The position numbers and the translations under genes are program-made. Shown piece by piece: positions 33,020 through 34,772 of a DNA stretch of 64,000 nucleotides (positions are counted from its first letter, which is position 1; every line of letters starts with the position of its first letter). The DNA comes from Barnesiella sp. An22 (GTDB lineage: Bacteria > Bacteroidota > Bacteroidia > Bacteroidales > Barnesiellaceae): NCBI RefSeq assembly GCF_002159975.1, contig NZ_NFJR01000003.1, positions 186,001 to 250,000 of the forward strand, read 5' to 3'. The notes under the pieces are model-generated. The model worked only from the letters and a program-made list of their open reading frames with translations, did not search any database and had not been told where the DNA came from.

Positions 33020-33313
33020 ATGGTAAAACACATTGTCACTTTCAAACTCACCGGCACACCCGAGGAACGCAAAGAGGTGGCCACCCGATTCAAAAACGCC
33101 CTGCTCGAATTGCCCGCCGTTATCGACGTGCTCCGCAGCATCGAAGTGGGTATCAACGAAAATCCCGCCGAGAGCTGGGATGTAGTGCTCACCGCTACCG
33201 TCGACTGCATGGCCGACGTGGAGACCTATGCCAAACACCCGGCTCACGTAGCTGCCGCCGGCTTGCTGGCCGGTCACAAGGCCGACCGCGCCTGCGTCGA
33301 CTACACCTGCTAA
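33020..33313 (+). CDS. Dabb-family (stress-responsive A/B barrel) protein
   Basis: A 97-aa cytoplasmic protein starting MVKHIVTFKLTGTPEERKEVATRFKNAL, with the Dabb features IEVGINENP, WDVVLTATVDCMADVETYAKHPAHVAAAGLL. Such proteins form dimeric ferredoxin-like barrels of mostly unknown role. It begins 15 bases after the ABC-F gene and is probably co-transcribed with it. Confidence 0.88.
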   Translation: MVKHIVTFKLTGTPEERKEVATRFKNALLELPAVIDVLRSIEVGINENPAESWDVVLTATVDCMADVETYAKHPAHVAAAGLLAGHKADRACVDYTC

Positions 33314-33332: not shown

Positions 33333-33380
33333 AAAAAAAACGAGAGCGGAAAATCGGGGAAACCCGGTCTTTCGCTCTCG
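33333..33380 (-). terminator. Terminator, best oriented for the minus strand
   Basis: Stem cgagagcg (33341-33348) with cgctctcg (33373-33380). A run of eight A on the left (33333-33340) gives eight U on a minus-strand transcript. This supports a minus-strand gene to the right, namely the 43-aa frame at 33432-33563. Confidence 0.75.
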
Positions 33381-33431
33381 TCGTATTTCATACGACCCTC
33401 CCTGGCGGGGAGCCTCAAACTTTTCTAAAAG

Positions 33432-33563
33432 TCAGGCAACCGCAGTTGCCAGTTTTTGTTGCAACAGGGCTGTTAACTCCTGGCACATGGCGCCATTTCC
33501 CATGGCACGATACTTCGCTATCTGATACCGAAGCATCTCTACTGTCATTTGTTCTTTCATCAT
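33432..33563 (-). CDS. Small 43-aa protein, unknown function
   Basis: An open frame too short for usual gene callers: 43 aa from ATG 33563 (MMKEQMTVEMLRYQIAKYRA...), ending LQQKLATAVA with TGA at 33432-33434. It is helical throughout with heptad-like hydrophobics (M, L, I, L) and no cysteine pairs or signal peptide. Support for a real gene: an upstream TATCTTTG -7 box (plus 33630-33637), a palindrome at the -33 position, and a dedicated minus-strand terminator 51 bases after the stop. I do not recognise the family. Confidence 0.6.
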   Translation of the reverse strand: MMKEQMTVEMLRYQIAKYRAMGNGAMCQELTALLQQKLATAVA

Positions 33564-33629
33564 AATTCAGCCTTTTGTGTTCTCCACCCGTTGTGGGGAA
33601 CGATTTATTCTTTACTCTTTTTACAAGGA

Positions 33630-33671
33630 CAAAGATAATACCATTTCCGAGAAAAACATGTTGTACAACAT
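33630..33671 (-). promoter_or_regulatory. Promoter and palindromic operator for the 43-aa gene
   Basis: TATCTTTG on minus (caaagata, plus 33630-33637). A perfect 14-base palindrome ATGTTGTACAACAT at 33658-33671 replaces the -33 region, with an extra half-site atgttg at 33679-33684. This suggests regulation by a dimeric DNA-binding protein. Confidence 0.5.
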
Positions 33672-33854: not shown

Positions 33855-34772
33855 ATGCCCGTAAAGATTCCCGCATCGCTGCCGGCTGTCGAGATACTCA
33901 AAGCCGAAAACATTTTCGTCATGGACGACCTGCGTGCCTCCACGCAGGACATTCGCCCGCTCAGGCTACTCATTCTCAACCTGATGCCGTTGAAGATCGT
34001 CACCGAGACCGACCTGCTGCGGCTCATCTCGAACACCCCGCTGCAAATCGAGCTCGACCTGATGAACGTCTCGGGCCACATCTCGCACAACACCCCCGTC
34101 GAGCATATCGACACCTTTTACAAGGATTTCAGCGAGATACGCACCCACAACTACGACGGCATGATCATCACCGGCGCACCGGTCGAACGGCTCGACTTCG
34201 AGAAGGTTGACTACTGGGACCAGCTGACCGAGATTTTCGACTGGGCCCGTACCCACGTCACCTCCACACTCTACATCTGCTGGGCGGCGCTGGCGGGGCT
34301 CTACCACTTCTACGGCATACCCAAGCATGCACTGCCCCACAAGCTGTTCGGCGTGTTCACCCACCACAAACACGACGAGAAGAATCCCATCTTCCGCGGC
34401 TTCGACGACCGCTTCGAGGTGCCTCACAGCCGCTACTCCGAGGTGCGCCGCAGCGACATCGAGCGGAACCCCGAGCTCACCATCCTCTCCGAGTCGGAAG
34501 AGGCGGGGGTCTACATGGTCATGGCACGCGGCTGTCGCGAGTTCTTCATCACGGGCCACTCCGAATACTCGGCCCTCACGCTCGACATCGAGTACCGGCG
34601 CGACCGGGCCAAGGGGCTCGACATCGCCCTGCCCCGCAACTACTACCCCGGCGACAACCCCGACAACCCGCCCGTGGTCACCTGGCGGGGACACGCCAAT
34701 CTGCTCTTTACCAACTGGCTCAACTACTTTGTATATCAACAAACTCCTTATAATCTGAACGATATTCGATGA
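33855..34772 (+). CDS. metA: Homoserine O-acyltransferase, MetA family (predicted acetyl-specific)
   Basis: A 305-aa protein that activates L-homoserine at the start of methionine synthesis. MPVKIPASLPAVEILKAENIFVM is the usual MetA start. The nucleophile is C142 in TSTLYICWAALAGLYHFYG. Residue 111 is Glu (GAPVE111). In this family Glu111 goes with acetyl-CoA use and Gly111 with succinyl-CoA, so homoserine acetyltransferase activity is predicted despite the MetA name. The stop overlaps the next gene by 4 bases. Confidence 0.95.
   Translation: MPVKIPASLPAVEILKAENIFVMDDLRASTQDIRPLRLLILNLMPLKIVTETDLLRLISNTPLQIELDLMNVSGHISHNTPVEHIDTFYKDFSEIRTHNYDGMIITGAPVERLDFEKVDYWDQLTEIFDWARTHVTSTLYICWAALAGLYHFYGIPKHALPHKLFGVFTHHKHDEKNPIFRGFDDRFEVPHSRYSEVRRSDIERNPELTILSESEEAGVYMVMARGCREFFITGHSEYSALTLDIEYRRDRAKGLDIALPRNYYPGDNPDNPPVVTWRGHANLLFTNWLNYFVYQQTPYNLNDIR

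Follow-up and report, generated by a model that had tools for sequence, protein, structure and literature searches.

Cur (BT4338), of the Crp family, regulates carbon limitation in Bacteroides, and in B. thetaiotaomicron it has been called a master regulator of gut colonisation (PMC6989115). A palindromic consensus, wwwTATGTTnTAnAACATAwww, was derived by Ravcheev et al. (2013) and is reported there as belonging to the Crp-like regulator BT4338 (PMC3878776). Townsend et al. (2020) reported that binding of BT4338 at fusA2 was lost once a consensus-like stretch of 22 bp had been removed (PMC6989115). Published Cur targets include sugar-use operons, fusA2 and the small RNA (sRNA) MasB, and an autoregulatory site has been proposed or reported for BT4338 and its orthologues.

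The locus described here lies in the window, meaning the whole 64 kb stretch of DNA that was analysed, from a Barnesiella genome of 3.35 Mb, and centres on a frame of 43 codons. With a probability that we put at a little under 0.8, this frame represents a stand-alone small-protein gene that would belong to the Cur carbon-starvation regulon in several genera of Bacteroidales. The features of the locus are as follows.

33432-33563, minus strand: 43-codon small-protein gene (open reading frame, homologues, pN/pS, fold prediction)
33637-33630, minus strand: -7 promoter box TATCTTTG of the Bacteroidales type (sequence; the box is also present in relatives)
33658-33671, no strand given: Cur-type palindrome ATGTTGTACAACAT, a perfect palindrome and the sole such site in the window
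33601-33579, minus strand: 5' leader hairpin GUUCCCCAC-AACGG-GUGGAGAAC (folding; retained in relatives)
33333-33382, minus strand: intrinsic terminator, a long GC-rich stem and then eight U (folding compared with shuffles)

An earlier note on this DNA had described a tiny helical frame, possibly regulated, between a -7 box and a hairpin followed by eight U, with a palindromic operator covering the -33 position. The box is indeed present, as TATCTTTG at 33637-33630, and the terminator proved equally sound, its stem (33382-33339) and eight U (33340-33333) folding with an MFE of -25.6 kcal/mol (z -7.1) that none of 200 shuffles equalled. The terminator is positioned just beyond the interval 33432-33671, and a simple terminator scan of the window, which gave three other sites, missed it because the stem holds internal mismatches. 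On the plus strand, the leader hairpin and the T-rich stretch after it (33578-33602) were scored as terminator-like by a simple scan. The palindrome is perfect and lies upstream of the promoter, 20 nt before the -7 box, as far as the earlier description went; it does not fall on the -33 position itself, however, but just upstream of the -33 region, its centre being at about -40/-41 relative to the inferred transcription start. The transcript would be about 290 nt long. In the list of open reading frames, the small gene is flanked by a divergent frame at 33855-34772, which we take to resemble metA, and by a convergent frame at 33020-33313, presumably a gene for a small Dabb-type protein.

Homologues with 86-100% identity are found in all nine genomes of the genus Barnesiella, including the source genome itself. 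With a broader profile, 52 of 60 sampled Bacteroides genomes had a match at E 0.05 or below, which was strong (below 1e-14) in 50 of them; among the genomes of good quality, 35 of 37 had a match. Of the two genomes not counted as strong, one matched at E 0.02 and the other at E 0.01, the latter match containing an internal stop, and 20 of the loci from this search were retrieved and inspected. A narrow profile, built from the nine genus sequences alone, matched 18 of 393 genomes in the order-wide sample, 15 of them credibly, the loci L039-L041 being discarded as chance, since these matches were short and partial and one was interrupted by a stop; the family is thus not universal in Bacteroidales. 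A single conserved pattern, used to scan species genomes, found 44 loci, which belong to Barnesiella, Parabacteroides, Tannerella, Massilibacteroides, Bacteroides ihuae, Alloprevotella rava and further Tannerellaceae/Bacteroidales, and the gene also occurs in two records of a plasmid collection, from Bacteroides finegoldii and Phocaeicola massiliensis. It spans at least six named genera. The record NZ_OY725907.1 (L184; 108 kb) is labelled as plasmid 5 of B. finegoldii, but with rny and a ZapA gene on it, it resembles a piece of chromosome. In B. finegoldii the homologue has the RefSeq accession WP_004301914.1 and is listed as a hypothetical protein, encoded close to ribonuclease Y. Two Bacteroides genomes each have a pair of neighbouring copies of the small gene (G422:C1:1991546-1992140 and G428:C10:67148-67748).

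Within the family, pN/pS is 0.114 in Barnesiella (9 sequences), 0.143 in Bacteroides (20) and 0.234 in the Tannerellaceae group (35), and in these three clades the variable columns are mostly third codon positions. Conservation of the frame and synonymous bias, the absence of which the earlier note had named as speaking against a small-protein gene, were both found, and on this comparative evidence the 43-codon frame is a real gene. For B. thetaiotaomicron, 409 small frames are reported as predicted, seven of them with ribosome profiling support (PMC7366714), and the small gene may belong to the 409. No publication naming the 43-aa protein was found, as judged by titles and abstract openings. 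The small-protein catalogues of Sberro 2019 and GMSC (PMC11364881) may also include the gene.

The description of the protein as helical is supported by structure prediction, AlphaFold2 with a 33-member alignment giving a two-helix hairpin (helices 2-21 and 24-42; pLDDT 92.4). Five residues (L11, Y13, Y18, G24 and Q28) are invariant across the 33 aligned members, 32 of which have a positive net charge, up to +7. In Pfam, the best family for the window protein was DUF2997, at 14.3 bits against a cut-off of 24.1, and the A2 alignment gave four weak families, none above the cut-off. NCBIfam gave none for A2 and a single weak match from one A3 member, the best E-values were 0.025 in PHROGs and 0.0024 in PADLOC (in one of 33 members), and PDB sequences gave no match to the protein. 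The weak matches, namely DUF2997, HR1, ABC_tran_CTD, DUF1192, three PHROGs, Lsa26, LmuC and Cas2, were rejected as chance resemblance between short helices. Foldseek against the PDB gave 78 matches at E 10 and none at 0.001; designed hairpins, Dps helices, UvrB/McsA hairpins and Rop are among the best 50 of the 78 (best E 2.6), and these likenesses were judged generic, none being significant. At the RNA level, Rfam gave zero matches in the window at the gathering score, and, by E-value, none that overlapped the small gene at 19 relatives' loci (3 + 16), the FopS and GibS families included.

Read on the minus strand, the palindrome region TTTTATGTTGTACAACATGTTT departs once from the fixed letters of the Cur consensus. 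The pattern ATGTTNTANAACAT, with at most one mismatch, has a single match in the 64 kb window, 0.06 being expected and 6 of 100 shuffles having one. Within 260 nt upstream of the gene, a Cur-type site with at most two mismatches was present in 72 of 73 distinct loci (no mismatch in 48, one in 22 and two in 2), the siteless locus being the Alloprevotella rava homologue L074, whereas the 73 equal downstream control stretches held no site with up to one mismatch and three with two. For this count 77 loci were collapsed to the 73, and L031, L032 and L034-L037 were excluded as the same genomes retrieved twice under other ids. All 20 retrieved Bacteroides loci have the site, 18 of them exactly and two with one mismatch. 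In 68 of the 72 distinct site-bearing loci a -7 box, here defined as TAnnTT(T/C)G, follows the site after 18-20 nt; with the strict pattern TAnnTTTG, five further loci besides L074 are boxless. Site and box pattern together matched 23 times, in 22 of the 198 genomes sampled from the order, against one control match, and the further Cur-type sites across this genome gave no clear picture of a regulon.

Class II activators of the Crp family have the centre of their site near -40, and a spacing of 18-20 nt before the -7 box fits activation rather than repression. The "operator" of the earlier note is better read as a probable activator site, and the suggestion of regulation gains from the match to the Cur consensus and from the unchanged position of the palindrome in 72 of 73 distinct loci. 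Taken together, the match and placement of the site are strong comparative evidence, short of proof, for predicted Cur control; the palindrome could also serve a different protein of the Crp family.

Two Crp-family genes in this genome (P0002 and P0003) exceed the Pfam cut-off. Relatives of P0002 are present in 20 of 21 Bacteroides genomes, at about 59-68% identity, and in 18 of these 20 loci (L142-L161) the -7 box of the promoter is immediately followed by the palindrome TGTGCTnTAnAACACA or a sequence close to it. These palindromes show three (once four) departures from the 14 fixed consensus letters, and under a stricter limit (at most two mismatches, 300 nt) the site is found in one of the 20 loci. 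Relatives of P0003 have a Cur-type site in none of 20 loci and no common promoter site. The family of P0002 and the promoter palindrome of its relatives, set beside the lack of a shared site in relatives of P0003, make P0002 the likely Cur orthologue, a candidacy based on family and promoter site and not on the sequence of BT4338. The promoter palindromes agree with the autoregulatory site described for BT4338 and its orthologues, and autorepression would be in keeping with the position of TGTGCTnTAnAACACA right behind the -7 box of the likely Cur gene. A third Crp gene, which occurs in two genomes beside what we take to be a gene for trigger factor, was set aside.

Elsewhere in this genome, ATGTTGTACAACAT occurs as a perfect copy just once (G000:C23:254685-254698), 10 nt ahead of the -7 box of the FopS sRNA (RF04319), which was detected at L003:2186-2290 with 80.9 bits. 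Inspection by eye showed the same arrangement in two further genomes of the genus (L024 and L025), which suggests that FopS is under Cur control in Barnesiella, perhaps through a site at the -33 element. In a second FopS-like sequence, also recognised by eye, the -7 box follows 9 nt after ATGTTTGAAAACAT (L134; G000:C2:67954).

The leader hairpin of the window, folded alone, has an MFE of -10 (z -1.7), with one C-A mismatch in the stem in this species; the corresponding shuffle test on single leaders is weak for many Parabacteroides leaders. The pairing analysis drew on 59 of 69 distinct transcripts. Five transcripts (L029, L030, L033, L038 and L078) fit neither group, and five of the Tannerella type (L102, L105-L107 and L111), whose leaders lack the hairpin, were excluded. 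For hairpin-bearing transcripts, to which these percentages therefore apply, the Bacteroides and Barnesiella leaders (29 rows) have a common stem with 99.3% standard pairs, compared with 48-84% for slid partners, and the Tannerellaceae leaders (30 rows) one with 95.8%, compared with 46-77%. Changes on both sides affect four of five pairs in the Bacteroides/Barnesiella stem and at most two when slid. In the Tannerellaceae they affect six of six, with up to five of six when slid, and further pair types number 12 in the stem and 13 in a slid partner, so that there the percentage paired alone distinguishes the stem. Joint folding energies are -0.7 (Bacteroides and Barnesiella) and -5.2 (Tannerellaceae). 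Throughout, the 5' arm of the stem is pyrimidine-rich and the 3' arm purine-rich. The hairpin precedes the start codon, and the sequence after it is rich in A and not in U, so that the hairpin is neither a terminator nor a lid on the start codon; its likely use would be in mRNA stability or protein binding.

A separate signal was noticed in the coding region. Across the nine Barnesiella species, codons 1-18 (33510-33563) show zero synonymous change, codons 19-36 vary and codons 37-43 vary little, giving 3 of 19 against 17 of 24 variable third positions in a comparison that was picked post hoc (Fisher p 0.0006). A predicted hairpin, GATGCTTCG..CGAAGTATC, overlaps codons 1-18. Synonymous suppression is absent from the Tannerellaceae group and confined to codons 1-6 in Bacteroides, L131 being omitted from the latter group in this comparison.

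These RNA features bring into view a dual-function or mainly regulatory RNA, controlled by Cur as MasB is in B. thetaiotaomicron, for which the protein would be secondary. The leader hairpin retained in relatives, the post hoc signal in the first 18 Barnesiella codons (p 0.0006) and the reported activation of the MasB sRNA by Cur (PMC10994844) would all accord with such an RNA, but we consider it unlikely given purifying selection on the amino acids in three clades, a synonymous suppression that does not extend to the Tannerellaceae and reaches only codons 1-6 in Bacteroides, and the lack of an Rfam match overlapping the gene. Less likely still is that the palindrome serves as the operator of another kind of repressor, local to the small gene. 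A perfect palindrome close to a promoter is what such a repressor would use, but this one matches a published global consensus and in 68 of 72 loci is separated by 18-20 nt from the -7 box downstream of it, as fits an activator, and it has no neighbouring gene in common across genera.

The neighbourhood bears equally on whether the frame acts on its own. Among the neighbour clusters listed for 67 loci, none joins the genera as a partner; Parabacteroides relatives have two common neighbours (in 19 and 17 loci), whereas those in Barnesiella are its own, and this lack of a neighbour common across genera favours a stand-alone gene. A leader peptide or uORF controlling a downstream gene, as a short frame behind a structured leader might be, is very improbable with a strong terminator after the frame, a convergent frame next to it (33020-33313) and neighbours that differ between genera. 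The frame is very short, as a functionless chance frame would be, but strong matches in 50 of 60 Bacteroides genomes, presence in 9 of 9 of the genus and pN/pS values of 0.11-0.23 leave that explanation a negligible share.

The favoured reading is a stand-alone small-protein gene under predicted Cur control. On exhaustion of sugar, a Cur of the BT4338 type would bind the palindrome and, as a class II activator, would aid RNA polymerase at the TAnnTTTG promoter, giving a transcript made up of an A-rich leader with its hairpin, the 43-codon frame and the terminator. The gene, its conservation and purifying selection, the match and position of the site, the leader hairpin and the predicted fold were computed here; binding, activation, the transcription start and translation are steps that we infer. 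The protein is predicted to fold into two antiparallel helices with a conserved GNG turn between them, and would probably dock, perhaps as a dimer, on RNA, the ribosome or a protein partner in starved cells, which is a guess. A bolder proposal, which we regard as doubtful, is that it is a starvation-specific, Rop-like hairpin binding RNA or the ribosome which binds its own leader hairpin, forming an autoregulatory loop under Cur in several genera, with an overlapping RNA signal in the first 18 codons of Barnesiella.

If the main reading is true, a small protein of several genera would be a nameless component of the Cur hunger programme, and its occurrence in genetically tractable Bacteroides makes it readily testable. 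The homologue WP_004301914.1 of B. finegoldii has, by eye, a Cur-like site and a leader hairpin; it is a database entry without a function, and its gene neighbourhood differs from that of the window. In structure, Rop and the UvrB/McsA hairpins likewise consist of two antiparallel helices of similar length, but the fold is generic and the small protein has no significant match to them and no sequence family in common. MasB (BTnc201) is, like the small gene, a short stand-alone transcript, and is described as Cur-activated with a peak in starvation; it is reported, however, as a narrowly conserved sRNA of about 100 nt (PMC10994844), on which grounds its identity with the small gene was rejected, whereas the small-gene transcript, at an inferred length of about 290 nt, is protein-coding and occurs in at least six named genera. 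BatR, described as a different RNA, was also rejected as the small gene. Finally, fusA2 of the B. thetaiotaomicron Cur regulon is reported to have a -7 box preceded by the same palindromic consensus (PMC6989115), but whereas fusA2 encodes EF-G2, the small gene encodes a predicted helical hairpin of 43 aa behind a putative Cur site.
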